From Lachnospiraceae bacterium (GTDB lineage Bacteria > Bacillota > Clostridia > Lachnospirales > Lachnospiraceae): a DNA stretch of 40,260 nucleotides. Positions 3-19,124 of the stretch are shown here, one piece after another. Both the position numbers and the translations under genes were made by a program. The notes beneath the pieces were generated by a model. That model saw nothing but the letters and a program-made list of their open reading frames with translations, made no database searches and had not been told where the DNA came from. Within the stretch, counting starts at the first letter, position 1; each line of letters starts with the position of its first letter. The stretch is from contig JAFWWB010000074.1 in assembly GCA_017518185.1 (NCBI GenBank), forward strand, positions 1-40,260. The letters are read 5' to 3'.

Positions 3-2522
3 GAGGAGGAATTCGAGGATCAGGATACCCTGAAGCTCTTTATCATCTCCGCGGCCATAAGGGAAAAGTACAGAAAGAAGGAGTATAAGGCTTCACTGCA
101 GCTTTCCGATGCCTGGATCGCCTATATGAACGCCATACAGGAGAGCCTGGGCACGGAGATAGAGGCCATAGCGGCAGTCACCGTGTCCGAGGGCGGCCTG
201 AATTTCGTAAGGAGCAGGCAGTTCGGCATGGTGAGGCGCTGCCGGGACAGCGAAGGCAGTGTCGTATACTGCTGTGACGGTGATCGTCTTGCGAGGCTTC
301 TGGAGGACAAATATTACCTGAAGGGCTTCAGGGATGATGTCTGCATACTCCTGCCCTTTGAAACCGAGGAGGGGGAAAAGAAGATCTCGCATATACCTTT
401 AAGCCTTGACGACCTGCCGGATGAAGGGGAACTTCCCCTGTACAGCAGATACCTCCTGAACAACGTGAAGAACAGCCGTGACTTTGAGTGCCGGAATGAG
501 GTGCGAAGGGAGGTCACGGAGCATTACCTGGGAAGCTTTTACTTCCTGCATACACTGGACGATTATAAGGACGAGGAAGAGGACGCCTATGGGGAGTGCC
601 CCACCCTGATCGGTGAGGACAGGGTGGAGCTCAGTCTTCTCATGCACAGACAGACCCATATGTATGTGCTGCTCATGTTCTTCCCGGACTGCCGTTATTC
701 CACCTCACAGATACTGGACCAGGTGAGCAAGAACTACCTGAAGATACGTTCCGACGGCTGGGAGACCTGCGTTAAGGGCATGAAGGATGAGACGGAAATC
801 CTCGGGATAAAAAGCTGGAAAGAGCTGGGAATGTACGAAGACCCTTCCTGTCCCGAGGCTGAAGAATATAAGAAGAGGCTTCTGGAGAAGGAAATGAGGT
901 ATGCCCTGTTCCGGAAGCTGGATGATGAGGGCGCGCTGGATGCCGCCAGGCTCATGGAGAAAGCCGGGCTAGTCAGTATGTATACCGGAGGATCGGGAGC
1001 CGTTATCCCTGAAAAGCCGGGCAGCTGGCAGGAGCTCATAGCAAAGAGGCGGAGTGAGTATAAGAAAGAGGCCCTTAAGGACAGGGAAAGGATCACGGGA
1101 CTCCGTGAAGAGATAGAAAAGCTCCAGAAGGAGGCTGACAGGCTCCTGGAGGAGCAGCTTGAGATAAAGGATTTCAAAAAACGCGAGGCCGCATGCAGGA
1201 AATACAAGAAAAAACTGGGAGGCTTCCGGGAAGAGGGAAGCAGTGACCCCAAGGGTATCAATGACCTGAAGAGAGAGCTTAAGGAGCTGGAAGAGAAGGC
1301 CGGAGAGCGTGCCCACAGAAGAAGGATACTCAAAGCCCTGGCGGCGCTGGAGGAAGAGGAGCTGGCGGAGGCTTTTGAATGCATAGGCGGATTTGATCCC
1401 GATGAGGATGAGATAAGAACGGCGGAGCGCCGGGTGAACCTGCAATTCAGATACAGGCAGGAGGAGCTGGCAGCCCTGGGTAAGATAATTCTTTCACACG
1501 GCTGTTACCATTATGCCCATCTGGATGACTATGTTTACGCTATGTACGGTCTGGTGATGGCGGGTTACGGGAAGGTCTTCAGCTGTATGACAGGCGAGCC
1601 GGAGCCCCAGCCCGGAGAGGACTGGGTGCGGAAGGATGATAAGAAGACCACCAGGGAGATGATGAACATACTCTCGGGGGAGACTTATTTTTCACTGTTC
1701 CAGACCTTCAGGGTTTATAATGACGAGCTTATAGAGAAGGCCGTTACGGATGTTTCGGCTTATGATTACTACACGGCCTATATGTCAAGGCAGACGGTGG
1801 TGTTCATACTGAAGGACCGGGTGCTGAAGGAACAGCTCCCCGATGACGATTATGTGCTTGAGTGTGATGTCAGCAGGGATTCGAAGGAGTACGGGGTGCT
1901 CACCCGCATAGGACTTGCGGCTACCTGCCTCTTTATCATGGAGCTCATAATGTTCCAGAACACGGCCCTTTCCAAGATGACGGTCAGGGTGTCGAAGGCG
2001 CTGACCCAGGCAGGGCATGTGCCCTGGAAGTACATCAACAGGCTGTACGAGGATTACGGTAAGACCATAGAGTTCTGGAAGACGGATAATTTCAAATACA
2101 ACGGTACTGCCCAGGAGGCGGAGAAGATCCGCACGGCCTTTACCAACGATGATCTGAAGGCGGTATACGCGGAACAGCAGGAGTACCTGCAGAAGATAGT
2201 GGATCTGAACAGTGCCGAGCAGGAAAGACGGAACGGAGTGGTCATAAACATACTTGGTGTGGTCTTTGCCATCTTCGGCGTTAAGGAATATGTGGTGGAG
2301 GAGATCCTGACGAAGTTCTATGACGGCCTGCCGGATAACTGGATCGCCGACACCGCACTTGAGGCCAACCGTACCTTCAACGTGCTGGCTATCTGCGGTT
2401 TTGCCCTGGCGTTCCTGATCATTTATTTCCTGAACAGGAGAAGCTATTATTACCGTATGAGAAGGCTCAAGAATAACGGGAGCAGCGCGGCCGGAAACGC
2501 TGACGGGGAGGAACAGGCATGA
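3..2522 (+). CDS. Unrecognised coiled-coil protein with two C-terminal membrane helices (5' end outside window)
   Basis: The frame is open back to the first bases, so the first ATG at 126 is probably internal and the true start lies left of the window; 839 residues are visible. The protein is charged and mostly soluble. A strongly predicted coiled coil (Glu/Lys/Arg-rich) lies around nt 1040-1380. Two hydrophobic segments follow near the C-terminus (nt about 2235-2300 and 2385-2445), separated by roughly 26 residues and followed by a short basic tail, so the bulk probably sits on one side of the membrane, anchored by a C-terminal hairpin. The two-helix end is loosely like CorA-type proteins, but I see no GMN motif and do not assign it. 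It overlaps the next gene by 4 bp (ATGA), indicating translational coupling. I do not recognise the family. Confidence 0.85.
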   Translation, partial: EEEFEDQDTLKLFIISAAIREKYRKKEYKASLQLSDAWIAYMNAIQESLGTEIEAIAAVTVSEGGLNFVRSRQFGMVRRCRDSEGSVVYCCDGDRLARLLEDKYYLKGFRDDVCILLPFETEEGEKKISHIPLSLDDLPDEGELPLYSRYLLNNVKNSRDFECRNEVRREVTEHYLGSFYFLHTLDDYKDEEEDAYGECPTLIGEDRVELSLLMHRQTHMYVLLMFFPDCRYSTSQILDQVSKNYLKIRSDGWETCVKGMKDETEILGIKSWKELGMYEDPSCPEAEEYKKRLLEKEMRYALFRKLDDEGALDAARLMEKAGLVSMYTGGSGAVIPEKPGSWQELIAKRRSEYKKEALKDRERITGLREEIEKLQKEADRLLEEQLEIKDFKKREAACRKYKKKLGGFREEGSSDPKGINDLKRELKELEEKAGERAHRRRILKALAALEEEELAEAFECIGGFDPDEDEIRTAERRVNLQFRYRQEELAALGKIILSHGCYHYAHLDDYVYAMYGLVMAGYGKVFSCMTGEPEPQPGEDWVRKDDKKTTREMMNILSGETYFSLFQTFRVYNDELIEKAVTDVSAYDYYTAYMSRQTVVFILKDRVLKEQLPDDDYVLECDVSRDSKEYGVLTRIGLAATCLFIMELIMFQNTALSKMTVRVSKALTQAGHVPWKYINRLYEDYGKTIEFWKTDNFKYNGTAQEAEKIRTAFTNDDLKAVYAEQQEYLQKIVDLNSAEQERRNGVVINILGVVFAIFGVKEYVVEEILTKFYDGLPDNWIADTALEANRTFNVLAICGFALAFLIIYFLNRRSYYYRMRRLKNNGSSAAGNADGEEQA

Positions 2523-3334
2523 AGCTCCGATACAGCGATATCTTCGTGGACCGCGAGGATCTCATAGAAAACAGGATAAGGATCATACACGAGAGAGGAC
2601 GTAAGCGCTGGTGGGGACACCCTTCAAGATGGTTTGTTGCGATACTCATTGTGAGCATCCTGCTCTCATATGTTTACGTTCTGAAGATGGAACAGGGCGG
2701 AGAGGTCACGTTCTTAAGCATGCTGGCCCTGGCGGCCATAGGCTATATCTGCGGTCCGCGTTACGGGATTGCGGGAGCCCTTTTATTTGCCGTGATCAAA
2801 TACTGTCTGGATTATGTGCTGCCGGGATATGCGGTTACGGCGCTTATGGAGATCAGAAACGACCCCGGTGCTGTGGGGGCGTGGTTTGATCAGATGAAAA
2901 GCGTTGGTTATGAGGCCGCATCGCAGCTGGATACCATATATTTTGATGATCAGAAAGACCGCATACAGCTTGTGGGAGATCTTTTCGATTACATCTTCGG
3001 TTATGGCGTGGTGGGCCTTTTCGGCCTGTTCTGCGGGTTGCAGAAAGAAAAAAAGGGAAGGTGGAAGACGGTCTTTGCGTATCCGCAGCTGGCGTTTTTT
3101 GCGGTCATAGTGCTCCGTTATGCGGAAAGCGTGCTGAATTATATCCTCTTTTATCCGGAAAACGAGTCTTTCATACTCTTTGCAACGGAGGCGCTGACCT
3201 ACAGCTTTTCCTATGCGCTGATAGACGGCGTGCTGGCTCTCATAGTCTTCATGCTCCCCAGCGTGACTAACGTGATACTCTTCTTCAGGACCATAGCCCA
3301 CAACAGCTACGACGGTGATCTGGATGAGCTCTGA
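2519..3334 (+). CDS. ThiT-like polytopic membrane protein (possible ECF transporter S component)
   Basis: The 271-residue protein has about six hydrophobic segments after a basic N-terminal region. The stretch GYICGPRYGIAGALL, followed by a short loop and later by DYIFGYGVVGLFGLFCG, resembles ThiT, the substrate-binding subunit of energy-coupling-factor thiamine transporters, whose helices carry a similar GxxxG-rich pattern and a DYxxxFxxLG-type segment. It is longer than usual ThiT (about 180-200 aa): it has a 40-residue charged N-terminal extension and an insert of about 45 residues near 110-150. I see no TPP riboswitch or thiamine genes nearby, so thiamine as substrate is not supported. 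It is coupled to the upstream gene by an ATGA overlap and overlaps azlC downstream. The ThiT relation is a motif-level impression. Confidence 0.6.
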   Translation: MKLRYSDIFVDREDLIENRIRIIHERGRKRWWGHPSRWFVAILIVSILLSYVYVLKMEQGGEVTFLSMLALAAIGYICGPRYGIAGALLFAVIKYCLDYVLPGYAVTALMEIRNDPGAVGAWFDQMKSVGYEAASQLDTIYFDDQKDRIQLVGDLFDYIFGYGVVGLFGLFCGLQKEKKGRWKTVFAYPQLAFFAVIVLRYAESVLNYILFYPENESFILFATEALTYSFSYALIDGVLALIVFMLPSVTNVILFFRTIAHNSYDGDLDEL

Positions 3335-4052
3335 GGAAAGAGGAAAGCAGTTTAAGGAGGGGCTCAGGGACGGTATCCCCATCGGACTGGGATATCTGGC
3401 GGTGAGCTTTACCCTGGGGATACAGTGCCGTGAATCGGGCCTCAGCGCCCTGGAAGCTACGGTCATGTCTCTGGTGAACCTGACCAGCGCAGGGGAATTC
3501 GCGGCCCTGACCATTATACGTACAGCATCATCCTATCTTGAGATGGCCATAAGCCAGTTAGTGATCAATCTTCGTTACATGCTGATGAGCTTTGCCCTGT
3601 CCCAGAAGGTGGAACCCGGGCTTTCCGTCGGCCACCGCATGGGCATCTCCTTCGGAGTCACCGATGAGATCTTCGGCATATCCATAGGCCGGAAGGACAG
3701 GCTGAGCCCCTTCTATTCCTACGGAGCCATGGCTGTGGCCGTACCCGGCTGGACTGCGGGGACCTGCCTCGGGGTGATCATGGGTGATATACTTCCCATA
3801 AACATAGTAAACGCCCTGAGTCTGGCGCTCTACGGCATGTTCCTGGCCATCATAGTACCCAAGGCAAAAGAAGATAAGCATGTGGCGGCGATATGCATAG
3901 TGGCCATAGCCGCCAGCACGGTGTTTTCCTATGTGCCTTATCTCAAGGCGGTTTCAGCGGGAAGCCGCATAATAATACTGACGGTGGCGCTGTCGCTGCT
4001 GGCGGCCCTTATCTGGCCCGTAAAGGATGAGGAGGGTAAGGATGCAGCATAA
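3324..4052 (+). CDS. azlC: AzlC family branched-chain amino acid exporter, large subunit
   Basis: The protein of 242 residues, all hydrophobic helices, matches the AzlC family: an N-terminal FKEGLRDGIPIGLGYLAV segment, a conserved SAGEFAAL region and the QLVINLRYMLMS motif. AzlC works with the small partner AzlD as a branched-chain amino acid exporter (known from azaleucine resistance in Bacillus). A GTG at 3315 is in frame, but the ATG at 3324 is the more natural start; neither has a strong ribosome site because translation is probably coupled to the upstream gene, which ends at 3334. It overlaps azlD by 11 bp. Substrate range cannot be read from sequence. Confidence 0.9.
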   Translation: MSSEERGKQFKEGLRDGIPIGLGYLAVSFTLGIQCRESGLSALEATVMSLVNLTSAGEFAALTIIRTASSYLEMAISQLVINLRYMLMSFALSQKVEPGLSVGHRMGISFGVTDEIFGISIGRKDRLSPFYSYGAMAVAVPGWTAGTCLGVIMGDILPINIVNALSLALYGMFLAIIVPKAKEDKHVAAICIVAIAASTVFSYVPYLKAVSAGSRIIILTVALSLLAALIWPVKDEEGKDAA

Positions 4053-4437: not shown

Positions 4438-5247
4438 TTGACTAAGAAACGCAGGACGGTAACTCTTATCATAGCGGCGCTGCTGCTGGCGGCAACGGTG
4501 GCTGCGATCATCATACTTCCGATTTCTGAAAAGCATGAGACCGTCAAGGAGGCCATGCGTGATGCGGTGCTCCATGATGCAAACAGGATAAACCTCTTCG
4601 GTCTTGCCGTGGATCCTTCCCTTATCTCGGGTTTTATCGTCACGGGCATACTGCTTCTCTTTGCCCTGATCTTACGCATATTTGTGATACCGCGCTTTCA
4701 GATGGTACCCGGAAAATTCCAGCTGGTCATAGAGACCTGGGTGGGCTTTTTCGATGACCTTGCCAGGACCAATTCCCCTCACAGGAACAAAGCCCTGGGA
4801 GCCTACATCTTCGGAGCGGGATCCTATATCTTCGCAGGCACCATGTTCGAGCTCCTGGGTATACAGGGCATCACCACTGAGGGACATTCCATATCCCTGC
4901 CTGCACCCCTGGCAAATATGAACGGCGCCATCTGCATGGGTGTCACCACCTATCTTTTCATAATGCTGGGCGGCATCGCCGGCAACGGCATCAAGGGCGT
5001 GGGAAAGACCCTGAAGGATTTCTCGCTGCCCATATCCATGACCTTCAGGCTTTTCGGAGCGCTGCTCTCCGGTATGCTGACAACGGAGCTGGTGTATTAC
5101 TACATAACCCTCTCCTTTGCTCTGCCGGTGGTGGTGGGTGTGCTGTTCACAGTGCTCCACGCCCTTATACAGGCATATGTGCTGACAATGCTCTGCAGCT
5201 TCTATTACGGAGAGGTCAGTGAAGTACATATAAAAAGTACAGAGTAA
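4438..5247 (+). CDS. atpB: ATP synthase Fo subunit a
   Basis: Subunit a (269 aa) forms the ion half-channels of Fo next to the c-ring. The essential arginine is R204 in the segment TFRLFGALLSG, and the conserved glutamine near the C-terminal helix is Q245 in LIQAYV. The usual RLFGN asparagine is replaced by alanine. About six membrane helices are visible, the first directly after a basic N-terminus. The start is a TTG at 4438 with an AAGGAG site at 4422-4427, 10 nt upstream; no in-frame ATG fits. It is the first gene of the operon, downstream of the 4365-4393 promoter; no atpI is seen before it. Confidence 0.95.
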   Translation: MTKKRRTVTLIIAALLLAATVAAIIILPISEKHETVKEAMRDAVLHDANRINLFGLAVDPSLISGFIVTGILLLFALILRIFVIPRFQMVPGKFQLVIETWVGFFDDLARTNSPHRNKALGAYIFGAGSYIFAGTMFELLGIQGITTEGHSISLPAPLANMNGAICMGVTTYLFIMLGGIAGNGIKGVGKTLKDFSLPISMTFRLFGALLSGMLTTELVYYYITLSFALPVVVGVLFTVLHALIQAYVLTMLCSFYYGEVSEVHIKSTE

Positions 5248-5281: not shown

Positions 5282-5587
5282 GTGAATGTATTGATGAGCA
5301 TTGCGGCAGCGCTGGCTGAGCAGGTGACGGATGCGGGAGTGCTTGCGGAGGCGGCAGGTGATGCCACCGGCAGCAAGGCAATTGCGGCGGCTATAGCCAT
5401 AGGACTTGCTGCCCTGGGCGGTGCCATCGCCATGGGTATGGCAATATCCAAGTCCAATGAGGGTGTGGCACGCCAGCCTGAGGCGGCAGGCAAGATACAG
5501 ACACAGCTGATGCTGGGCCTGGTGTTCATAGAAACCGTCGTCATCTATGCACTGATCGTTGCCATACTTGTTGTCTTCGTATTATAA
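5282..5587 (+). CDS. atpE: ATP synthase Fo subunit c
   Basis: Subunit c forms the rotor ring. It is 101 residues, longer than the usual 75-89, with an extra N-terminal stretch of about 25 residues before helix 1. The loop signature is VARQPEAAG (62-70). The ion-carrying carboxylate is E84 in FIETVVIY. Aligned with the Na+-binding Ilyobacter c subunit, T85 and Y89 fit the Na+-type positions, but the residue equivalent to Gln32 is M51, so a full Na+ site is missing and proton coupling is more likely (inference). Start is GTG at 5282 with GGAGGA at 5268-5273, 8 nt before. The 34-bp gap after atpB holds only this ribosome site. Confidence 0.95.
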   Translation: MNVLMSIAAALAEQVTDAGVLAEAAGDATGSKAIAAAIAIGLAALGGAIAMGMAISKSNEGVARQPEAAGKIQTQLMLGLVFIETVVIYALIVAILVVFVL

Positions 5588-5601
5588 GGAGGAAGCAGAA
5601 G

Positions 5602-6087
5602 ATGCCTTTGGGAATAGACTTCGTCCAGATACTGCTGCATTTCTTTAATGTGGTGATCCTTTTCGCGGGGCTTTATATACTGCTGTATGCCCCCGTAAAG
5701 AAGTTCATGGACAAGAGGCAGAAGTACTTCGAGGGGCTCCGTGAAGATGCGGAGAAAGCCCGGGAGGAAGCTGACAGGGAAAAAGAGGAATATGTCAGGC
5801 TCCGGGAGCAGGCCGAAGAGCAGATAGCTTCCGAGAGGAAGGCAGCCGCATCGGAGATCGAGGAGATGAAGAGGCATGCCAGGGATGAGGCACGGGAGGA
5901 GGCAAGGATCCTTCTGAACGATTCCAGGGAACAGGCCGAGAGGGAAAAGAAGGCGATCCTCAGCGGGGCGAAGGAGGATATCGCAGCCCTCATAGAGGAG
6001 GCTACACGCAAGGTGATGCAGGACAGCGGGGATTCCGATCCCTATGAGGACTTTGTAGAAGCGGAAAGGAGCCGCAGCGATGGCTGA
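5602..6087 (+). CDS. atpF: ATP synthase Fo subunit b (peripheral stalk)
   Basis: This 161-residue subunit has one N-terminal membrane helix (about residues 10-30) followed by a long, highly charged helix (residues 35-140) typical of the b dimer, which links Fo to the top of F1. Normally its C-terminus binds the delta C-terminal domain. There is no delta domain fused to b (unlike mycobacterial b-delta), and the acidic C-terminal tail ends with the overlap into atpA. Start ATG has AAGGAGG at 5586-5592, 9 nt before. The last 8 bp (ATGGCTGA) overlap the start of the fused alpha gene, so the junction is a compact natural coupling rather than assembly debris. Confidence 0.95.
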   Translation: MPLGIDFVQILLHFFNVVILFAGLYILLYAPVKKFMDKRQKYFEGLREDAEKAREEADREKEEYVRLREQAEEQIASERKAAASEIEEMKRHARDEAREEARILLNDSREQAEREKKAILSGAKEDIAALIEEATRKVMQDSGDSDPYEDFVEAERSRSDG

Positions 6088-7831
6088 GACCAGGCTTAAA
6101 AAGGCTTTTCTGTATGCTCCCGAGAAGCCGGATGAGCTTCAGGAGAAGCTGCTGAAGGATTTTCTCAGGGAGAAATACTCCGAAGGATATGAGATCGTAT
6201 GGCGGGAGGACGAGAGCTTAAGCGACGGCTTCCGCCTTGTGGTAGGTGACGATGTTTATGACCGTTCCCGTGAGGGACGGTTTAATCAGTTAAAGGAGAA
6301 GCTTCGCGCGGCCGTATCGATGGGCAGGGGCGGGGATGATGTCATCACTCTCTTTAAGGGAGTGATAGACGACTGGGATGCCCGGACAGTTGCCTCGGAG
6401 GAGGGGACGGTCCTTACCGTCGGAGACGGGATAGTGGTAGTGGAAGGACTCTCCAAGGCCGTATACGGTGAGATACTCATTTTCGAGTCCGGGATAAGAG
6501 GCATGGTCCAGGATATACGCAGGGATACCCTGGGAGTGATCCTTTTCGGAGAAGACGACGGCATCACCGAGGGCAGCAGGGTGAGGCGCAGCGGCAAGAC
6601 TGCCGGTATACCCGTAGGTGACGCTTTCATAGGGCGGGTTGTCAATGCCCTGGGTGATCCGATCGACGGAGGCGGCATCATACAGGCTGACGGCTACAGA
6701 CCCATCGAGGCCGCTGCTCCCGGCATCATAGAGAGGAAGAGCGTGGATACCCCCATGTATACGGGTATCCTTACCATAGATTCCCTGTTCCCCATCGGAA
6801 GGGGACAGAGAGAGCTGATCATAGGCGACAGGCAGACGGGAAAGACCTCCATAGCTGTTGACGCCATACTGAATCAGGAGGACGTGATCTGCATATATGT
6901 GGCCATAGGCCAGAAGGCCAGCAGCGTGGCCCAACTGGTGGAGAATCTGCGCAGGAAGGGCGCAATGAAGCATACCATAGTGGTGAGCGCCACTGCCAGT
7001 GAGACCGCACCTATACAGTATATCGCTCCATATTCGGCAACCTCCCTCGGAGAGTATTTCATGCACAAGGGAAAGGACGTGCTGATCGTCTATGATGACC
7101 TTTCCAAGCATGCTGTGGCATACAGGGCGCTTTCGCTTTTGCTGGAGCGTTCACCGGGCCGTGAGGCTTACCCCGGAGACGTGTTCTTCCTCCATTCAAG
7201 ACTGCTGGAGCGTTCCGCAAGGCTCTCCGATGAGCTGGGCGGAGGCAGCATGACGGCCCTTCCCATAGTGGAGACCCAGGCCGGAGACGTTTCCGCATAT
7301 ATTCCCACGAACATAATATCAATAACCGACGGCCAGATCTTCCTGGAGAGCGAGCTCTTCTTTGCGGGCCAGAGGCCGGCCGTCAATATCGGTCTTTCAG
7401 TGTCCCGTGTGGGCGGTGCCGCCCAGAAGCAGGCGATGAAGAAAGCAGCCGGTACCATCCGTCTGGATCTGGCACAGTTCCGGGAGATGGAGGTGTTCAC
7501 CAAATTCTCATCAGACCTGGATGAGACCACGAAGAAGCAGCTGGCCTACGGCACCAGCCTTATGAGGGTATTAAGACAGCCCCAGGGTCATCCGAGGTCA
7601 CTGCACGATATGGTCATACTGCTTGTTACGGCCAACGCTAAGCTGCTGACGGAAATAGATCCGGATCATATCACGGGCTTTAGCGAGGAGCTCCTGTCTT
7701 ACTTCTCATCCATGCATCCCGGCATATGCAGGAGCATAGACGAGGAGGGTACCCTGGATGATGCACGAAAGGCCGAGATACTGGAGAAGGCCCGGGAATT
7801 CATAGAGAAATGGCAAACGTCAGAGAACTGA
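6080..7831 (+). CDS. atpA: Delta C-terminal domain - alpha fusion subunit of F1 ATPase
   Basis: This 583-residue protein is about 80 residues longer than a normal alpha (about 500). Residues 81-583 are a standard alpha: nucleotide-binding loop GDRQTGKTS at 249-257, arginine finger R443 in SVSRVGG, and a recognisable N-terminal helix (about 86-102). Residues 1-78 match the C-terminal third of the delta subunit: a short strand, a helix (QEKLLKDFLREKY), strands EIVWRED and DGFRLVVGDDVYD, then SREGRFNQLKEKL, equivalent to the delta pattern GDxxIDGSxRGRLxxL. No separate atpH exists and the six-helix N-terminal domain of delta is absent from the operon. An in-frame ATG at 6320 (M81) lies exactly at the domain boundary but has no well-spaced ribosome site. 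It overlaps atpF by 8 bp and atpG by 22 bp. Confidence 0.95.
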   Translation: MAETRLKKAFLYAPEKPDELQEKLLKDFLREKYSEGYEIVWREDESLSDGFRLVVGDDVYDRSREGRFNQLKEKLRAAVSMGRGGDDVITLFKGVIDDWDARTVASEEGTVLTVGDGIVVVEGLSKAVYGEILIFESGIRGMVQDIRRDTLGVILFGEDDGITEGSRVRRSGKTAGIPVGDAFIGRVVNALGDPIDGGGIIQADGYRPIEAAAPGIIERKSVDTPMYTGILTIDSLFPIGRGQRELIIGDRQTGKTSIAVDAILNQEDVICIYVAIGQKASSVAQLVENLRRKGAMKHTIVVSATASETAPIQYIAPYSATSLGEYFMHKGKDVLIVYDDLSKHAVAYRALSLLLERSPGREAYPGDVFFLHSRLLERSARLSDELGGGSMTALPIVETQAGDVSAYIPTNIISITDGQIFLESELFFAGQRPAVNIGLSVSRVGGAAQKQAMKKAAGTIRLDLAQFREMEVFTKFSSDLDETTKKQLAYGTSLMRVLRQPQGHPRSLHDMVILLVTANAKLLTEIDPDHITGFSEELLSYFSSMHPGICRSIDEEGTLDDARKAEILEKAREFIEKWQTSEN

Positions 7832-8715
7832 AACAACGCATGACCAGCGTTCAGAATACCAAAAAGATCACCAGCGCCATGTATCAGATAGCTTCTGCAA
7901 AGCTGAGAAAGGCGAAGGCCGGGCTCGAGAAAGCGAGACCTTATTTCTCGCATACTGAGAGTGAGATCAAAAAGATCTTCCGTACCGCGGGTGATACCGG
8001 ATCGCGCTATTTCGCAAAGAAGGATGAGGAAGACGAAAGGCCCATGGGCTATCTCGTCATAACGGCGGACAGAGGCCTGGCGGGGGCGTATAACTACAAC
8101 GTTCTCAAGGCTGCGGCAGCGGAGATCAGGAAGAGGAAGCGCGTACGGCTCTACGTGATAGGAGAGTACGGGCGCAGGTATTTCAAAAAAAGGGGCGGCC
8201 CCATAGAGGAGGCATTTTATTATACGGCCCAGGATCCCAACCTTCACAGGGCAAGGGAAATAGCCGAAAGGCTCCTTATGGAGTATGACAGCGGGAGGAT
8301 ATGCGGCATAAGCGTTATCTACAGCGATATGGAAACGGAGCTTACCAGTACGGTAAAATGCTCCAGGCTCCTGCCGTTCGAACACGGCGACATCGCTGCG
8401 GAGGAAGGTGATAAAAGCAGGGTCAGGTATCATTTCGAGCCCTCACCGGCAGCAGTGATAGAGAGCATGATCCCCTCATATATGACGGGCTTTGTATACG
8501 GTGCTCTGGTGGATTCCTTCTCGGCGGAGCAGAATGCCCGCATGAATGCCATGAGCAACGCCAACAGGAATGCCGAGGAGCTCATGGGGAGCCTCAGGCT
8601 CGAATATAACCGCACCAGGCAGGCTATTGTCACCCAGGAGATAACGGAGGTGGCGGCCGGTGCCAGGGCACAGCGGCGGAAAAAGAAGAAGAGATCACAG
8701 GAAGAAGCTTCCTGA
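7810..8715 (+). CDS. atpG: ATP synthase F1 subunit gamma (central stalk)
   Basis: Gamma (301 aa) is the rotating central shaft of F1. The N-terminal helix with LKQRMTSVQNTKKITSAM and the C-terminal helix with ARMNAMSNANRNAEELM are the conserved coiled-coil halves that sit inside the alpha/beta hexamer; the Rossmann-like middle contains the conserved ITADRGLAGAYN. It is slightly longer than average (about 285), ending in a very basic tail (RRKKKKRSQEE) after the normal end. The ATG lies inside the atpA reading frame (22-bp overlap). Confidence 0.95.
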   Translation: MANVRELKQRMTSVQNTKKITSAMYQIASAKLRKAKAGLEKARPYFSHTESEIKKIFRTAGDTGSRYFAKKDEEDERPMGYLVITADRGLAGAYNYNVLKAAAAEIRKRKRVRLYVIGEYGRRYFKKRGGPIEEAFYYTAQDPNLHRAREIAERLLMEYDSGRICGISVIYSDMETELTSTVKCSRLLPFEHGDIAAEEGDKSRVRYHFEPSPAAVIESMIPSYMTGFVYGALVDSFSAEQNARMNAMSNANRNAEELMGSLRLEYNRTRQAIVTQEITEVAAGARAQRRKKKKRSQEEAS

Positions 8716-8729
8716 GGTGATGGAGGTAG

Positions 8730-10543
<1,814 letters not shown>

Positions 10544-11462: not shown

Positions 11463-13514
11463 ATGAGAAAGCTTCCCTGTATACTCATAGTGATGATATC
11501 CCTGCTGCTGTCTGCCGCACTGTGCACCGACGGCCGCGGGCTGGGACTTTATGCCTATGATGCTGGGGATGTCAGTTCATCCGTAGATATAGATACTTCG
11601 GAATTTGACCGCCCGGACTGGGGCGTGGTGGGCTATGAGGTCAGCGGGGATGCCGGCGCAGCAGCCCTTTCCGTGCATCTGAGAGAGAAGAGCGACAGCA
11701 GAAGGAACATAGGGTTCAGGCTGGTATATGATGATGAGAACTACGAAGATGACATGGTGATACCGGCGGGAGAGGAGTACGGTTTCCTTCTGCTGCCCGG
11801 AGGGGCGGTGCGCCGCATAGAAGCGCCCGAATATGTCCAGCCCATGGCAAACAGGCTGGAGCTCCATTCGGGTATACCGGCGGAAAGGGCGGTGCCGGTG
11901 AAGATACGCTACAGGATACTTGTTCCGATCATAGTGCTGTGCCTGACTGCAGGCATCATACTATGGAGATCCGAAGATATCTACGGCTGGGGGGACAGGT
12001 TTATGAAGTCCTTGAAGGCCTGCATAAAAAAGCCTTCGATCCCTGTGATCGTCGCTGCCTGCTGCCTGCTGCTGCCGCTTTTACTGTTCGTGATACCGGT
12101 CCCCATGCACAGCAGGAAGCTTTTATTCTGTTTTATTACCGGCGTGATCCTCAGCGCGCTGATACTCTTTTTCAGGAGAGGGAAGCAGGATGTGGAGAAG
12201 ACCTTCCTGCTCCTTGCGATAACAGCCGGATGCACCCTCATACTGATAATGCCTGCAGCCGGAGGCGGCTGGGATACGGATATGCATTACCGCTATGCCC
12301 TTCAGGCTTCGGCAGTTCTTCCCAGGAGCATCAGCAGGGCTGACAGCCTTCTGACCGCCGGCGCGTCCAGGACCCAGCTTTCACCGGATCCGGAGCTTAA
12401 CGCCGCCAATGCGGTCATACTGGCGGGAGGAGCAAAGGAGTACGCCGGAAGCGTATCCGGCAGCCGGTATATCACCCATATACCTTCCGGAGCGGGACTG
12501 GCTGTCGCAAAGCTGCTGTGCCTGGGCTTTAAGCCTGCCTTTATGCTGGGGGAGCTTGTAAACCTGCTGGCATACTGTTTCCTGGTATATGCGGGGATAA
12601 AGAGGCTTAAGAGCGGTAAGTCGGTAGCAGCCGTAACAGCATTGATACCAAGCTGTATCTTCCTGGCCTCTACCTACGGCTATGATTACTGGCTCCTGGG
12701 CTTTTCGATATTCGGCATGTGCCAATACTGCGGCATAATGCAGGATGAGGGTCAGGCCCGGATGAAGGATGTCATCCTGATGACGGTATCCTTATCCCTG
12801 GCCTGCGTGCTCAAGCAGAACTATCTGCCTTTTGCTCTGATACCCTTTCTTCTGCCGAAGAAGAAGCTTAAAAAGCCGCTTCGTTACTATCTTCTGTGCG
12901 CGCTTCCCCCGGTACTGCTGCTGATATCTCTTGCGCTCCGCAGCGGCCAGGTCGCCGAAAGCGGGGGGGATATGAGAGGCGGTACGGGAGTAAATGCCGC
13001 GGAGCAGCTTAAATTCGTGCTCTCGGACATTCCGGGGTTCATACGCATGCTGGCGGCTGAAACACTCAAATGGTTCAGCCCCTACAATATCTCTAAGAGC
13101 GCCGGAAGCTTCGGGAATTTCGGCTTTACCGGCATAAAGCTGCTGGGGATGCTGCCCTTCGGGCTGGCACTTGCGGCGGCCTTTATCGACAGGGAGGAAT
13201 GTGATGCCGGAAGCGCCGGAGTGCTGATAAGAGGCTTCAACATTCTCCATCTCTTCGGGGGCATGGCTGTCATAGCGGCTGCGTTTTATCTGGTCTATAC
13301 GCCGGTGGGAGCGGCCGAGATACTGGGTGTGCAGCCCAGATACATACTGCCTTTCGTATACCCGCTTATGGCGGTTGTGGGAAACGGCGGGATAAAGGCG
13401 CTTAAGGAAAAGCCCAGGCTGAGAGGCGGACTTGTAACCGTGATACTTACCGCCTCCATGGCGGTGTTCTGGGCGGAAGCAGCGACACTGATACTTCCGA
13501 AGGTGATATACTGA
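11463..13514 (+). CDS. DUF2142-type large membrane protein (GT-C-like)
   Basis: The 683-residue protein starts with a hydrophobic signal-anchor (residues 3-21), then an extracytoplasmic region of about 125 residues, then about 12 membrane helices. The short motif GWDTDMHYRYALQ after a helix and the later GVQPRYILPFVYPLMAV fit the DUF2142 family, whose members carry a WDE/D...H motif in the first outer loop like GT-C glycosyltransferases that use lipid-linked sugars. An enzyme in surface glycan assembly is therefore likely, but no activity is proven for the family that I can name. It is followed with 1-bp overlap by a DPM1-like GT2 that could supply a polyprenyl-phosphate sugar donor. Confidence 0.82.
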   Translation: MRKLPCILIVMISLLLSAALCTDGRGLGLYAYDAGDVSSSVDIDTSEFDRPDWGVVGYEVSGDAGAAALSVHLREKSDSRRNIGFRLVYDDENYEDDMVIPAGEEYGFLLLPGGAVRRIEAPEYVQPMANRLELHSGIPAERAVPVKIRYRILVPIIVLCLTAGIILWRSEDIYGWGDRFMKSLKACIKKPSIPVIVAACCLLLPLLLFVIPVPMHSRKLLFCFITGVILSALILFFRRGKQDVEKTFLLLAITAGCTLILIMPAAGGGWDTDMHYRYALQASAVLPRSISRADSLLTAGASRTQLSPDPELNAANAVILAGGAKEYAGSVSGSRYITHIPSGAGLAVAKLLCLGFKPAFMLGELVNLLAYCFLVYAGIKRLKSGKSVAAVTALIPSCIFLASTYGYDYWLLGFSIFGMCQYCGIMQDEGQARMKDVILMTVSLSLACVLKQNYLPFALIPFLLPKKKLKKPLRYYLLCALPPVLLLISLALRSGQVAESGGDMRGGTGVNAAEQLKFVLSDIPGFIRMLAAETLKWFSPYNISKSAGSFGNFGFTGIKLLGMLPFGLALAAAFIDREECDAGSAGVLIRGFNILHLFGGMAVIAAAFYLVYTPVGAAEILGVQPRYILPFVYPLMAVVGNGGIKALKEKPRLRGGLVTVILTASMAVFWAEAATLILPKVIY

Positions 13515-14215
13515 TGCTGAAGACACTGGTGATCATACCGGCATATAATGAGGAGGAGTGCATAGCGGATACCGTAGCACAGGTGCGCTCCGCCGCGCCC
13601 TGGGCCGATGTGCTGGTGGTGAACGACTGCTCTTCGGACAGGACGGGAGAGATACTGAAGGATCTGAAAACGGCCCATGTGGATCTTCCGGTGAACCTGG
13701 GTATAGGCGGCGCAGTGCAGACGGGATACAGATATGCCGTGGAGAACGCTTATGAAGCTGCAGTGCAGCTGGACGGGGACGGACAGCATGATCCCATATA
13801 CTTAAAGGCTATGATAGATGAACTGGAGAAGGGGGCCGACATGGTCACCGGCTCCCGCTACATAAAGAAAGAGGGCTTCCAGTCCAGCGGCATGCGAAGG
13901 GCCGGCATACATTTCCTGAACGGTCTGATACGCCTCTGCTGCGGGGCGAAGGTGAGCGATGCCACCAGCGGCTACAGGGCCTGCGGGAAAAAGCTGATAG
14001 ACCTCTATGCAGAGGACTATCCCGCGGATTATCCGGAGCCCGAGGCAGCCGTGATGGCAGTGATGAACGGGGCAGTCATTCGTGAGATCCCGGTGGTGAT
14101 GCGTGAGAGGAGCGGCGGCAGGAGCTCAATACGTCCTCTTCACAGCATCTATTATATGACAAAGGTCTCCCTGGCCATACTGATACACAGGCTGACCTTA
14201 AGGAGGAGAAAATGA
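13514..14215 (+). CDS. GT2 glycosyltransferase, dolichyl-phosphate mannose synthase-like
   Basis: This 233-residue soluble GT-A enzyme opens with LVIIPAYNEEECIADTV and has the acidic motifs VVNDCSSD and QLDGDGQHDP (nucleotide and metal binding). GSRYIKKEGFQSSGMRR and the later DATSGYRA segment are characteristic of polyprenyl-phosphate sugar synthases of the DPM1 type, although the C-terminal membrane helices of some members are lacking. It probably transfers a sugar from a nucleotide donor to undecaprenyl phosphate. It is coupled to DUF2142 upstream and to DUF2304 downstream (ATGA overlap); GT2-DUF2304 pairs are a familiar arrangement. Confidence 0.9.
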   Translation: MLKTLVIIPAYNEEECIADTVAQVRSAAPWADVLVVNDCSSDRTGEILKDLKTAHVDLPVNLGIGGAVQTGYRYAVENAYEAAVQLDGDGQHDPIYLKAMIDELEKGADMVTGSRYIKKEGFQSSGMRRAGIHFLNGLIRLCCGAKVSDATSGYRACGKKLIDLYAEDYPADYPEPEAAVMAVMNGAVIREIPVVMRERSGGRSSIRPLHSIYYMTKVSLAILIHRLTLRRRK

Positions 14216-14565
14216 CGATCACCTTACAGATATCCATGATAGCGGCGGAGCTCATCTACTTTGCCCTGGTATTCTTTTTCCTGAAAAAGAAGATGCTGAG
14301 CCTTAAGTACACCCTGGTCTGGCTCATAGCGGGAGCAGTGATGCTGCTCTTTACCGTATTCCCCATGCTGATGATAAGATTTGTAAAGCTCTTCGGTGTG
14401 GAGTCGGCCATGAACGGCCTTTTCTCACTGCTGATCTTTTTCATACTCACTATAATCATGTCCCTGACAGCCATAGTCTCAAGGCAGGCAGAACGGATAA
14501 GGAGCCTGACACAGTCACAGGCCCTGCTTGAGAAGCGCATAAGGGAACTGGAGGAAAAAGAATGA
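14212..14565 (+). CDS. DUF2304 family small membrane protein
   Basis: The 117-residue protein has three hydrophobic helices (about 5-25, 35-55, 68-90) and a short C-terminal coiled coil (residues 92-116, SRQAERIRSL...LEKRIRELEEKE). The first helices with KKMLSLKYTLVWLIAG are the DUF2304 pattern. Its usual neighbour, as here, is a DPM1-like GT2, suggesting that it helps anchor that soluble enzyme to the membrane (inference). Overlaps of 4 bp on both sides imply strict co-translation. Confidence 0.85.
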   Translation: MTITLQISMIAAELIYFALVFFFLKKKMLSLKYTLVWLIAGAVMLLFTVFPMLMIRFVKLFGVESAMNGLFSLLIFFILTIIMSLTAIVSRQAERIRSLTQSQALLEKRIRELEEKE

Positions 14566-15368
14566 AGACATACACCGCAGCGGACTTAAGCTTTGTTATC
14601 TGCGCTTACGGCGAGAGCCCCTATCTGGAGGAATGCATACGTTCCCTGAAAAGACAGAGCGTGAAGGCGAAGACCGCCATAATGACCTCCACCCCCAATG
14701 TCCATATCTACCAGCTGGCGGAGCTGTACGGTCTGGAGGTTAAGGTGAACAGGGGGGAGAGCGGTATAGCCGGGGACTGGAATGCGGCTCTTGCTTCGTC
14801 GGATACGGAGCTCACCGTCATAGCTCATCAGGATGATATCTACGGCAGGGACTATGCGGCTTCGGTGCTGCTTGCGGCAAACGAGGCTGAGGATCCCATA
14901 CTGATATTTACGGATTACGGCGAACGCCGCGGCGGGGAGAATGTATATCACAACAGACTGCTGGGAGTAAAGCGTCTTATGCTGGCTCCCCTTAAGATAA
15001 AGGGCCTTGCTCCTTCGGTGGCAGCCAGACGGCTGGTGCTGTCCCTGGGATCACCCATCTGCTGTCCCTCCGTCTGCTATGTCATGGAGCATATGCCGGA
15101 GAAGCTCTTCGATCCGCTCTACAAGGTGAGCCTGGACTGGGATGCCTGGGAGAGGCTTTCAAGGAAAGAGGGAAGCTTTGTCTATGTGCCCGGCATACAT
15201 ATGCTGCACCGCATACACAAGGGCTCGGAGACCACGAAGCTCATAGAGGATCTCACCAGAAACTCAGAGGATCTGGGTATGTATGAGCGTTTCTGGCCGG
15301 AGAGCATAGCAAAGCTGCTGGAGCATTTCTACAGCCGCGCCGAGGAGTCGAACCGCCTGGATGACTGA
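14562..15368 (+). CDS. GT2 family glycosyltransferase
   Basis: A 268-residue cytoplasmic GT-A enzyme. The N-terminus has LSFVICAYGESPYLEECIRSLKRQ, the nucleotide-binding region of family 2; AHQDDIYGRDY around residue 88 supplies the DxD-like metal site, and the SLDWDAWERLSRKEGSFVYVP segment fits the acceptor region with its conserved acidic-aromatic motif. Sugar and acceptor cannot be inferred. It probably adds one residue to the repeat unit made by the neighbouring genes. It overlaps the next gene by 8 bp. Confidence 0.88.
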   Translation: MKTYTAADLSFVICAYGESPYLEECIRSLKRQSVKAKTAIMTSTPNVHIYQLAELYGLEVKVNRGESGIAGDWNAALASSDTELTVIAHQDDIYGRDYAASVLLAANEAEDPILIFTDYGERRGGENVYHNRLLGVKRLMLAPLKIKGLAPSVAARRLVLSLGSPICCPSVCYVMEHMPEKLFDPLYKVSLDWDAWERLSRKEGSFVYVPGIHMLHRIHKGSETTKLIEDLTRNSEDLGMYERFWPESIAKLLEHFYSRAEESNRLDD

Positions 15369-17649
15369 GAAGAAGAATGTTATCTGGAATATGATATACA
15401 GCCTTATGAGCGCCGGCCAGTCAGCGTTGCTGTTGCTGCTGGTCAACAGGACCCTTAAGGAAGAAGCAGCCGGGGTATTCGCCCTGGCTTTTTCCGTGGC
15501 GGTCTTTCTCATGTACATAGGCAACTACGGCATAAGGAATTTCCAGGTAAGCGATGTACATGAAAAATATACCCCGGGACAGTACTATTCCGGCAGGATA
15601 CTGAGCATGCTGTTCATGGCGGCAGCAGCCGCGCTGATACCCCTGTTCTCCCTCTACACCGGGGAGAAGCTCATGGTGCTGGCAGCACTTACCGTATTCC
15701 GCATGAGCGAATGCGCGGAGGATGTTTTCCACGGACGCTACCAGCAGAAGGGAGACCTGTATCTGGCCGGCATGCAGGGAACGGCGAGGCTTGTTATCTG
15801 CGATATCGTCTTTGCGGCCGCCCTTCTGGGAGGAGCGGCACTTACGCTGTCCTCCTGGATATTTGCGGGAGTGTCGGTGATCTGCGTGCTGGTCTTTTCC
15901 GCATTCAGCCTGAAAAACTACGGCGGCTTCAGGCCGGAATTCAGGGGCACCGGAGCTCTTATGAAAGAGACCTTCCCCCTCTTTCTCAATTACCTTCTCA
16001 TTGCATATCTCATGAACGTTTCCAAATATGCCCTGGATCATTTCTCGGACGATACCGTCCAGGCATATTACGGCATACTTTTTACACCGGTGTTCGTGGT
16101 AAATCTCCTGAGCACCATGATATTCAGGCCTATGATCGTGGGCATGGCGGAAAAGCTGAAGAGCGGGGATATAAGCGGCTACAGGAAGCTGGTGAGGCGG
16201 CAGGAGCTGATAATCCCGGGCCTCGGGATACTGATGCTGGCCTTCTGCGCTGTGGAGGGGCTCCCGCTCTTAAGCCTTGTCTACGGCAGTGACGTAACAC
16301 CCTTTATGCTGCCCTTTATGCTTCTCCTGGCGGGAGGGATATGCTCGGCCTATTCCAGCTTCCTGAATGTCTGCCTGGTGACTTTAAGGGGGCAGAGGCA
16401 GTGTTTTTATCTGACGGCGCTCACCGCGGCAGCGGCAGCAGCAGGTCATTATCTCATACCGCTCTTTGTGAAGGCGGATATCATGACCGTGACGGCAGCG
16501 GTATATCTGGGAGTGATGGCGCTGCAGGCGCTGCTTTACATGATACTTCACGCCCGGCTTCTTTGGAAAAGGGAAAAGCTGAAGGAGCATCATGTCCAGG
16601 TGGGACTGCTCACCGTGTATTCGTTTAATTACGGCTCCTTCTTCCAGGCAGTCTCCCTGTACCGCTGCATAGAGAGCCTGGGCTATGAATGCGAACTGGT
16701 GAATGAACGCTTTAAGAGATACCAGTGGGGGAACTTAAGGCTCCTATACGCATTCCATGATCTGCTGCCTTCCTTTGCCAGGGGCATGGTAGCGGGAATG
16801 CTGCCACAGTACAGGACCTATCTCAGGCTTGCGAAGGATGTGGCAGCCTACAGGCAGTCTCCGGAGAGCGAGGATATGGAGAGCCTTACGGCAGGGTATG
16901 ACAGACTGATACTGGGAGCGGACGAACTCTGGTCAGCGTCCCCGCGCTCTATAAGGTATACGCCGGAATACTTCGGCAGGGGCATAAGCTGCCCCCACTC
17001 AAGCTATGCGACCAGCGGCTGTCTCTTTGATCTGTCGGATGAGACGCTGAAGGCGCAGGTCAGGGACGATGTGAACAGCTTTGAACATATAGCGGTAAGG
17101 GATGAACATACCGCGGAACTGGTGCGTGAGCTTACGGGAAGGGAGGCTTTACTTGTGCCGGATCCTGCGCTGCTTTACCCCTGGTATGTAAAGAAAGCGG
17201 AAGCGCCGGAGCGTCCCTATGTGCTGCTCTACGGTTCCGAATATGATGAGGTACAGCGGGCTTTCATAAAGGAGAGGGCGGCGGAACTGGGAGCGGAGAT
17301 CTGCGCCCTGGGCTGGCCCCAGGATTTTGCGGACCGTTTCCTGGATCCTGAGAGCGCGGAGGAGTTCCAGAACTGTTTTGCCGCTGCGGCATACTGTTTC
17401 CCTGCCACCTTCCACGGCACCATTTTTTCGATAGTGCATCATAAGGATTTCGTCACCATGGGAAATGAACTGAGGGGAGCCAAGATAAATATGCTGCTTG
17501 AGCAGACAGGGCTTACGGACCGGCTTTACGGGGCCGGAAAGGAATATGGTCCGATAGACTACGCTGCAGTCGAAGAAAGACTTGACGGCCTGCGGCAGAA
17601 AGCATACAGGTATCTGAAGGAGGCGCTTAAGAGTGGAAGCCGTGCTTGA
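15361..17649 (+). CDS. Fusion of polysaccharide flippase and polysaccharide pyruvyl transferase
   Basis: The 762-residue protein joins two whole proteins that are usually separate. Residues 1 to about 398 are a Wzx-type flippase of about 12 helices (NMIYSLMSAGQSALLLLLVNR, then YGIRNFQVSDVHEKY). A basic linker follows. From about 411 the sequence is a soluble polysaccharide pyruvyl transferase domain (PF04230 type): VYSFNYGSFFQAVSLY, LGADELW, VRDEHTAELV, VPDPALLY and the C-terminal AYCFPATFHGTIFSIVHHKDFV. The transferase would decorate glycans with pyruvate ketals in the cytoplasm, while the flippase moves lipid-linked units out. An in-frame GTG at 16600 with AAGGAG 12 nt before could also give a free transferase. 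Confidence 0.9.
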   Translation: MTEKKNVIWNMIYSLMSAGQSALLLLLVNRTLKEEAAGVFALAFSVAVFLMYIGNYGIRNFQVSDVHEKYTPGQYYSGRILSMLFMAAAAALIPLFSLYTGEKLMVLAALTVFRMSECAEDVFHGRYQQKGDLYLAGMQGTARLVICDIVFAAALLGGAALTLSSWIFAGVSVICVLVFSAFSLKNYGGFRPEFRGTGALMKETFPLFLNYLLIAYLMNVSKYALDHFSDDTVQAYYGILFTPVFVVNLLSTMIFRPMIVGMAEKLKSGDISGYRKLVRRQELIIPGLGILMLAFCAVEGLPLLSLVYGSDVTPFMLPFMLLLAGGICSAYSSFLNVCLVTLRGQRQCFYLTALTAAAAAAGHYLIPLFVKADIMTVTAAVYLGVMALQALLYMILHARLLWKREKLKEHHVQVGLLTVYSFNYGSFFQAVSLYRCIESLGYECELVNERFKRYQWGNLRLLYAFHDLLPSFARGMVAGMLPQYRTYLRLAKDVAAYRQSPESEDMESLTAGYDRLILGADELWSASPRSIRYTPEYFGRGISCPHSSYATSGCLFDLSDETLKAQVRDDVNSFEHIAVRDEHTAELVRELTGREALLVPDPALLYPWYVKKAEAPERPYVLLYGSEYDEVQRAFIKERAAELGAEICALGWPQDFADRFLDPESAEEFQNCFAAAAYCFPATFHGTIFSIVHHKDFVTMGNELRGAKINMLLEQTGLTDRLYGAGKEYGPIDYAAVEERLDGLRQKAYRYLKEALKSGSRA

Positions 17650-18856: not shown

Positions 18857-18862
18857 TAAAAT
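18834..18862 (+). promoter_or_regulatory. Sigma-A promoter before the small protein and flippase genes
   Basis: TGGACA (18834-18839, one mismatch to TTGACA), a 17-nt spacer and TAAAAT (18857-18862) preceded by TGA, giving an extended -10. It overlaps the end of the FrhB-like gene, 38 bp before the small gene. Confidence 0.7.
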
Positions 18863-18899
18863 ACCGCAGGATATGTTTTGCGGCAGAGGAGGAAGCAAA

Positions 18900-19115
18900 A
18901 TGGCAGAGAATAGAAACGAACAGGCGGAACTCGAGACATTGATGAACTCGCTTTCCTTTGCTGACGAGGGAGCGGGAGTGGTCTCATCCATGAACAGCGT
19001 CATGCGGCAGAAGGATGTGGACTTCCTTGTGGGGCTTCTTCAGGAGCTTCAGAGCTATCGTGAGATAGGAACGGTTGAGGAGTGCAGGGCCTATAAGCAG
19101 AAGGCTCTGGGCTGA
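18900..19115 (+). CDS. Small acidic protein of unknown function
   Basis: The 71-residue protein starts at ATG 18900, chosen because AGAGGAGG lies about 8 nt before it; an upstream in-frame ATG at 18849 has no site and overlaps the promoter. It is acidic and probably helical: MAENRNEQAELETLM then DVDFLVGLLQELQSYREIGTVEECRAYK. The final segment (helix, then YREIGTVEEC) resembles a short motif frequent in small Firmicute and phage proteins, but I cannot name a family. It has its own promoter and is followed after 9 bp by the SpoVB-type flippase gene. Confidence 0.75.
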   Translation: MAENRNEQAELETLMNSLSFADEGAGVVSSMNSVMRQKDVDFLVGLLQELQSYREIGTVEECRAYKQKALG

Positions 19116-19124
19116 GTACCGTAA

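Follow-up and report, generated by a model that had tools for sequence, protein, structure and literature searches.

A stretch of 40,260 nucleotides (nt) from a Lachnospiraceae bacterium (GenBank assembly GCA_017518185.1, contig JAFWWB010000074.1; below, the window) was analyzed for its F-type ATPase operon. The window is contig C54 of a 3.3-Mb genome that is 99.77% complete. The operon lies on the + strand in the order a, c, b, alpha, gamma, beta, epsilon and has no delta gene; its alpha open reading frame (ORF) begins with a domain of delta and shares 8 bp with atpF, the sole b gene of the operon. Gene order, missing atpH and overlap were all as described in an earlier note on this DNA, which had been made from its letters alone. 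The following features were assigned, with lengths in amino acids (aa).

4438-5247, + strand: atpB, subunit a, 269 aa (Pfam ATP-synt_A, E 3.5e-16)
5282-5587, + strand: atpE, subunit c with an N-terminal extension, 101 aa (Pfam ATP-synt_C, E 4.6e-17)
5602-6087, + strand: atpF, subunit b, 161 aa (Pfam ATP-synt_B, E 1e-11)
6080-7831, + strand: fused alpha ORF, 583 aa
6080-6313, + strand: delta C-terminal (b-binding) domain, residues 1-78 of the fusion (Pfam OSCP at residues 12-75, hhalign, predicted model)
6320-6322, + strand: ATG of M81 at the domain junction, not conserved and without a ribosome-binding site of at least 5 nt
6332-6370, + strand: retained alpha N-terminal helix, residues 85-97 (model at low confidence, predicted local distance difference test (pLDDT) 46-48; N-termini of unfused alphas)
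6395-7831, + strand: complete alpha with barrel, nucleotide-binding and C-terminal domains and stop (TIGR00962, residues 86-577)
7810-8715, + strand: atpG, gamma, 301 aa (TIGR01146, 259.2 bits)
8736-10124, + strand: atpD, beta, 462 aa (TIGR01039, 790.8 bits)
10121-10543, + strand: atpC, epsilon, 140 aa (Pfam ATP-synt_DE_N, E 1.3e-16)

Residues 86-577 of the fused ORF are an ordinary alpha, with 707.9 bits against a TIGR00962 cut-off of 484.45; together with the presence of all seven genes in one operon, this identified an F-type ATP synthase. Subunit a contains FRLFGALLSG, which we take to be the region of the essential arginine.

The delta domain of the alpha ORF

The proposal that the N-terminal extension of alpha corresponds to the C-terminal third of delta was borne out by profile searches. 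Residues 12-75 matched positions 108-172 of the 172 positions of the Pfam OSCP/delta family (PF00213, E 9.6e-7), and the score of 29.5 bits exceeded the gathering threshold of 22.3. Full-length delta models of NCBIfam stayed under their own whole-protein cut-offs (best 26.3 versus 115 bits), as would be expected of a lone domain. A single-sequence search of residues 1-107 against the PDB returned weak delta matches (E 0.095 to 0.57), among them an engineered delta-alpha chain, described below, at E 0.095 and the delta of PS3 at E 0.36. When 14 such domains were aligned with seven canonical deltas using hhalign, a probability of 96.5 (E 9.9e-10) was obtained over the C-terminal 76 columns of delta, and a control with a two-sequence subunit b profile gave a probability of 0.2. 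Residues 56-71 of the fused alpha read GDDVYDRSREGRFNQL.

Residues 7-81 were predicted to fold as strand-helix-strand-strand-strand-helix in a model built from 47 sequences (mean pLDDT 74.5). The pLDDT was 81-88 in blocks of residues 11-60 and dropped to 72 and then 62 towards residue 80. The alpha N-terminal helix (residues 85-97) lies in a low-confidence stretch of the model, and such stretches also occur inside alpha, for example at residues 399-445. The retained helix is part of the stretch with which alpha binds delta in ordinary enzymes; in PS3 alpha, this stretch comprises residues 2-30 (Ueno et al. 2025, PMC12229609). No match to PF00213 positions 1-107 was found for the delta N-terminal six-helix bundle, nor does the operon have ORF space for it, so that a whole delta subunit is not encoded there. 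The arrangement is thus the one termed delta-deltaN-alpha: a delta C-terminal domain (CTD) in frame on the N-terminus of a complete alpha, with no other delta in the operon.

The ratio of nonsynonymous to synonymous substitution rates (dN/dS) of the delta domain had a median of 0.088 and a maximum of 0.185 over the 12 pairs of 16 that were usable, among which one genome pair occurs twice, and that of the alpha core had a median of 0.042 (16 pairs). Judged by its codons, the delta domain is under purifying selection; a degenerate, unselected domain was ruled out by the median of 0.088. An assembly deletion, which the earlier note had already argued against, or a frameshift was likewise ruled out, since 24 of 35 genomes of the same genus share the fusion. 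Profiles and model together show that the window encodes a complete F1Fo ATP synthase in which delta survives only as its b-binding CTD, carried by every alpha.

Elsewhere in the window, two ORFs of 798 and 271 aa (126-3331), upstream of AzlC/AzlD, had no Pfam match at 1e-5. The segment at 11463-20759 is likely a surface-polysaccharide cluster, because the four ORFs scanned there matched DUF2142, glycosyl transferase, pyruvyl transferase and polysaccharide flippase families.

Spread and history of the fusion

Such fusions were found well beyond this genome. In the 24 fused genomes of the genus, the match began at query residue 1-8, in the delta domain, and continued into alpha (144 genomes searched). 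Thirteen of 54 further genomes of the family were fused as well, six of them CTD-only and seven with a whole delta. Within the class, one ORF covered both delta and alpha parts in at least 35 of 391 genomes, in 15 families, and a phylum sample of 398 genomes added at least 13 fusions with an unbroken frame outside the class among the matches listed. Ten of these 13 were fetched (L270-L279, six families), and all were CTD-only and had no separate delta close by. Fusions made up 136 of the 174 loci of the main set (125 CTD-only, 11 with whole delta), and no separate delta-like ORF was detected near any of the 136. The distance from the b stop to the delta domain was at most 169 nt in the 122 of the 125 CTD-only loci that have a b gene in view, which leaves no room for a delta bundle of about 100 residues. 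The fusion is carried by G015 (L138) and G002 (L145), both of the genus of the window, and by NE2001 (L106); some fusion-bearing strains are, we presume, in culture.

The genome of the window also encodes a full atpH (182 aa, 166.2 bits) on contig C46, inside a second complete operon of the order a-c-b-delta-alpha-gamma-beta-epsilon (G000:C46, locus L086). A loss of delta function from the cell is thereby ruled out. The earlier note had named a full atpH elsewhere in the genome as a refutation of the proposed loss, and to the letter this is what was found; but that delta has an enzyme of its own. The survey that it had suggested confirmed that the fusion is common among relatives.

We then asked in how many genomes the fusion stands alone, by scanning 76 genomes, nearly all fused, with PF00213 at E 0.01. 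A CTD-only fusion was the sole match over the cut-off in 19 of them (G137, G116, G076, G465, G222, G518, G234, G246, G356, G270, G417, G424, G167, G158, G265, G146, G476, G478 and G373). Completeness is 95% or more in fifteen of the 19; G167 and G417 each consist of a single contig. A search for atpD at E 1e-50 found none in G222 and G518, where the fused gene is on a short contig; in G424 and G476, contig ends truncate the genomes' own beta. The other second atpD-like matches seen among the 19 genomes scored about 194-217 bits, far below the cut-off of 462.85. G003, G024 and G006 also had the fused delta alone and were left uncounted, owing to an incomplete genome or, in G006, a second operon near a contig end. 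Moreover, a full-length fusion was the sole delta in seven more genomes (G083, G379, G414, G338, G248, G194 and G159; L083, L218 and L219 are among the loci concerned), and a CTD fusion was the sole delta match in G549, a single contig outside the class. The fused type is therefore self-sufficient, with no other detectable delta in many genomes. The short b-to-delta distances and these 19 genomes upheld the claim that the bundle is truly lost.

The history of the fusion was examined in trees of the alpha core. Of 176 loci examined, 174 had an alpha, and four with fewer than 440 residues of alpha core were dropped; the remaining 170 gave 159 distinct cores and, after thinning at 95% identity, 147 rows. 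All trees were unrooted and of a quick kind, in which counts alone do not tell gain from loss and operon transfer is not separated from vertical descent. The window fell in a 90-row clade (Shimodaira-Hasegawa-like approximate likelihood ratio test (SH-aLRT) 99), 88 rows of which are CTD-only fusions. The other two are the doubtful L039 (G023, split form), left out as evidence because its junction holds unread bases, and L234, taken up below.

Full-length fusions occurred in other clades, with CTD-only ones adjacent to them or nested among them. In a 69-row alpha-plus-beta tree, L075 grouped with L077 (99) and L216 with L081 (99), and L072 stood beside L076 and L215 (91); these three belong to a group of six rows (97), four of them full and two CTD-only fusions. 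A 103-row alpha tree with phylum-wide rows kept L075 with L077 (99) and L072 with L076 and L215 (96); it did not resolve the position of L081. The simplest reading is that fusion came first and bundle loss later, two or three times in this group. The clade of the window lay among full-length and CTD-only fusions in the 103-row tree (31 fused rows, 90) and apart from them in the 147- and 69-row trees, and further CTD-only fusions (L204, L207, L208 and L209) sat among alphas of the C46 kind. A single clade of all 40 fused rows was rejected by the approximately unbiased (AU) test (p 8.5e-31), as was one of all 29 CTD-only rows (p 6.9e-37). On the 103-row tree, the fused and unfused states required 8 changes, at least 4 of them forced by starred branches. 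Since a single fused clade was rejected, the fusion would appear to have more than one origin.

The full-length delta-alpha fusions, of 669-690 aa with 675 aa in L075, are L074, L075, L076, L079, L080, L083, L084, L215, L216, L218 and L219. Median identity of the N-terminal domain was 0.29 in these 11 fusions versus 0.31 in 19 free deltas, and that of the CTD was 0.34 versus 0.35. They are puzzling, as three N-terminal domains would compete for one central place.

A different fusion was observed in two CTD-fusion genomes of different families, in which gamma and beta form one ORF.

L220 (G270), 5597-7957: gamma-beta ORF, 786 aa, whole gamma, linker, whole beta
L228 (G396), 5515-7899: gamma-beta ORF, 794 aa, whole gamma, linker, whole beta

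Both linkers contain an in-frame ATG GAC CAR AAG with an AAGGA-like sequence upstream. Free beta may be made from this internal start, because tying a rotor subunit to three subunits of the stator would otherwise be senseless.

Coupling ion, stalk number and alternatives

The c subunit of the C46 operon carries PxxxQ...ET, which we take to be the Na+-type c-ring pattern. In the alignment, the c subunit of the window has G and M in place of P and Q, followed by E-T; at the helix-1 glutamine expected of Na+-type rings, it thus has M, and the C46 protein has Q. In the first locus set, in which some genomes occur twice, this glutamine was present in none of 130 fused operons, none of 18 unfused sisters and 14 of 15 unfused operons of the C46 kind. 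Hence the proton-type ring tracks the clade more closely than the fusion, the unfused sisters lacking the glutamine too. As the window c has no Na+ glutamine, its enzyme is probably coupled to H+, and the C46 operon probably encodes a Na+-type enzyme.

One genome accordingly has two complete F-ATPase operons, whose predicted coupling ions differ, along with rnfC on contig C14. A proton source of the NiFe-hydrogenase kind was ruled out, as PF00374 had no match in the genome at E 1e-5; pumps of other kinds lay outside the search. In L272-L279, helix 1 of c has Asp (Asn in L277) at the position of the Na+-type Gln, in addition to a helix-2 Glu. The c subunits, measured from ORF starts as called, had a median of 126 aa in 114 CTD-fused loci versus 73.5 in 18 unfused sisters, which reflects an N-terminal extension; that of the window has 101 aa.

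The nearest experimental guide to stalk number is an engineered Bacillus PS3 enzyme from which the delta N-terminal domain was removed and in which the CTD was fused to alpha (Ueno et al. 2025, PMC12229609; PDB 9jc1). In that paper, the N-terminal domain, which lies on the pseudo-three-fold axis, was argued to limit the enzyme to one stalk. The engineered enzyme took on as many as three b dimers, with one a subunit apiece, and one to three stalks were seen by cryo-electron microscopy. Its a/gamma ratio rose 2.2-fold and its b/gamma ratio 1.8-fold, and H+/ATP was 5.8 versus 3.0 (PMC12229609).

By analogy, we consider it fairly probable that the window encodes a natural multi-stalk F-ATPase, itself probably proton-coupled. 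With the delta bundle, which normally permits a single stalk, gone from the three-fold axis, each of the three alphas would offer one b-dimer site, and assembly would yield an enzyme with two or three peripheral stalks and as many a subunits facing a single c-ring. The ions transported per turn would equal c subunits times a subunits, and the ion/ATP ratio would for this reason rise two- to three-fold. Such an enzyme could make ATP at low membrane potential or, in reverse, pump many ions per ATP, and it would work beside an ordinary Na+-type enzyme in the same cell. The concern voiced in the earlier note, that three b-binding domains would face one b dimer, is probably no problem, given that the engineered equivalent can take as many as three b dimers and one a for each of them (PMC12229609). 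We lean, with less assurance, towards a broader proposal: that multi-stalk, multi-a synthases are common in anaerobic Clostridia and beyond, arose repeatedly through fusion of a whole delta followed by bundle loss, and serve as a low gear for weak ion gradients, here beside an ordinary Na+ enzyme and elsewhere as the sole F-ATPase.

Several points weigh against the multi-stalk, proton-coupled enzyme. The engineered enzyme also had a truncated epsilon, carried two stalks on average and formed triple-stalk particles rarely (PMC12229609); for the natural members, stalk number, stoichiometry and ion/ATP ratio are extrapolated from sequence and from this analogue. The coupling ion depends on assumed motif positions, and outside the class the Na+ glutamine occurred in two of ten fused operons, with Asp or Asn there in the other eight. 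Fusion does not always go with bundle loss, since the full-length fusions keep a conserved N-terminal domain. Within the clade of the window, the alpha of L234 (G394; 1998-3590, 530 aa, labelled 'none' in the tree) shares 8 bp with b, like the alpha of the window, and keeps about 25 extra N-terminal residues, with no delta domain and no delta-like ORF near it; a full delta is encoded on another contig. This operon seems to have lost even the delta CTD. Finally, the PF00213 scan at E 0.01 failed to pick up even the fused domain in G021, G077 and G154, so a very divergent extra delta could escape detection.

Among the alternatives, it is quite possible, if below an even chance, that the same multi-stalk enzyme acts mainly as an ATP-driven pump that moves many ions per ATP in a fermenting cell, with the Na+-type operon as the synthase. 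This differs from the favored explanation only in direction, and the likelihoods that we attach to the two overlap. Given that rnfC is present, ATP could be made by the Na+-type operon from a Na+ gradient, and no PF00374 NiFe hydrogenase that might pump H+ was found at E 1e-5. However, where the fused enzyme is the sole F-ATPase, it would need to do both jobs.

It is unlikely, in our estimate, that all three alphas carry the domain while only one b dimer and one a are taken up, the fusion being a firmer tether and two domains staying empty. The operon has one b and one a gene, like those of ordinary enzymes, and to our knowledge a single case among natural F-ATPase structures has more than one stalk. 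Against this, nothing known limits the stalk number once the bundle is absent, and the engineered equivalent carried about two and at most three stalks (PMC12229609).

The full C46 delta could also be borrowed, its bundle capping the fused F1 and leaving a single stalk. The presence of a full atpH in this genome fits such borrowing, and the L234 operon, without a delta domain in a genome with a full delta elsewhere, raised our estimate a little, to a level at which it is still improbable. Borrowing is not needed by the type, because the 19 of 76 genomes with a CTD-only fusion have no other delta over the cut-off.

The earlier note had also supposed an internal start at M81 (ATG 6320), exactly at the junction, that would restore a 1:2 ratio of fused to unfused alpha. 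A junction ATG of any kind was present in 43 of 109 fused genes. A junction ATG or GTG with a ribosome-binding site of at least 5 nt at a fitting distance was found in only 6 of the 109, and none precedes the M81 ATG. As a yardstick, such a site accompanied an N-terminal ATG, GTG or TTG in 23 of 38 unfused alpha genes, and the first start codon in 41 of 109 fused ORFs, although this first codon need not be the true start. Since such starts are rare and absent at M81, an internal start is, on this codon evidence, not part of the fused type. An enzyme of one fused and two plain alphas, made from a start at or near M81, is thus the least probable of the alternatives.

The multi-stalk explanation touches on what is close to a textbook rule, namely that each enzyme has one peripheral stalk and one a subunit, which fixes the ATP yield of a gradient. 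The fused design is found in most sampled genomes of a gut Lachnospiraceae genus and in at least 15 families of the class, together with intermediate forms and more than one origin, and in some genomes it is the sole F-ATPase found. Natural multi-stalk use is thereby directly testable.

Comparison with known systems

The delta-deltaN-alpha kind itself is already in print. It was not known to the earlier note and has been published since July 2025 as a design, together with a remark on Acidaminococcus fermentans (PMC12229609). In the open-licence literature searched, this paper was the only one to describe a delta-alpha fusion. We found in that literature, which subscription papers may extend, no account of the breadth of spread, the presence in Lachnospiraceae, the full-length fusions, the repeated bundle loss, the multiple origins or the genomes with the fusion as sole F-ATPase.

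More than one delta per F1 also occurs in nature in PDB 9itj and the entries that follow it (six entries, 12 delta chains for 18 alpha chains). We take 9itj to be the two-stalk enzyme of Chloroflexus aurantiacus, whose paper was not found in the open-licence literature. It differs from the window in having a separate, shortened delta of 157 aa that is not fused. Loci L235 (G395) and L236 (G498) have a separate delta of 150-151 aa before alpha, with an N-terminal domain about 20 residues shorter, and these short deltas recall that of 9itj, with its two delta per three alpha.

In mycobacteria and Gordonia, a stalk subunit is likewise fused to delta, but the partner is b and not alpha (PMC5709465). 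The N-ATPases have no delta gene either, as judged from the gene order given there, and that order differs from the one in the window. An N-ATPase was ruled out for the window, as its alpha scored 574.3 bits against a TIGR03324 cut-off of 750.5 and passes the ordinary atpA model instead. The fused alphas outside the class (L270-L279) are of the C46-operon type, and the clade of the window is separate from them.

The closest counterparts are those of the engineered kind. Ueno et al. noted the same fusion in A. fermentans and in two UniProt entries (G4Q3K6 and A0A1I2C5T3) and predicted natural multi-stalk enzymes (PMC12229609); there too delta and alpha are joined and the delta N-terminal domain is missing, as in the window, in other bacteria. 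In a PDB sequence search, 9jc1 stood alone among the best 60 of 131 matches in aligning from within the delta domain onward (residues 8-544). Using Foldseek, the 9jc1 chains ranked 1, 2 and 5 over 569-571 columns, which made them the best match of the window model. Their root-mean-square deviation of 8-9 Angstrom and template modelling (TM) score of about 0.7 mean that the domains are set differently or modelled loosely. The best 50 entries of VIA-align did not include 9jc1 and held ordinary alpha chains instead; both rankings are dominated by the alpha part. The window protein and the engineered PS3 chain thus consist of the same parts in the same order, with a short linker in PS3, and have nearly the same length (583 versus 580 aa). 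The PS3 enzyme is man-made, lacks the epsilon C-terminal domain and has had its stalks, structure and H+/ATP ratio measured, whereas that of the window is a natural counterpart known from its sequence.

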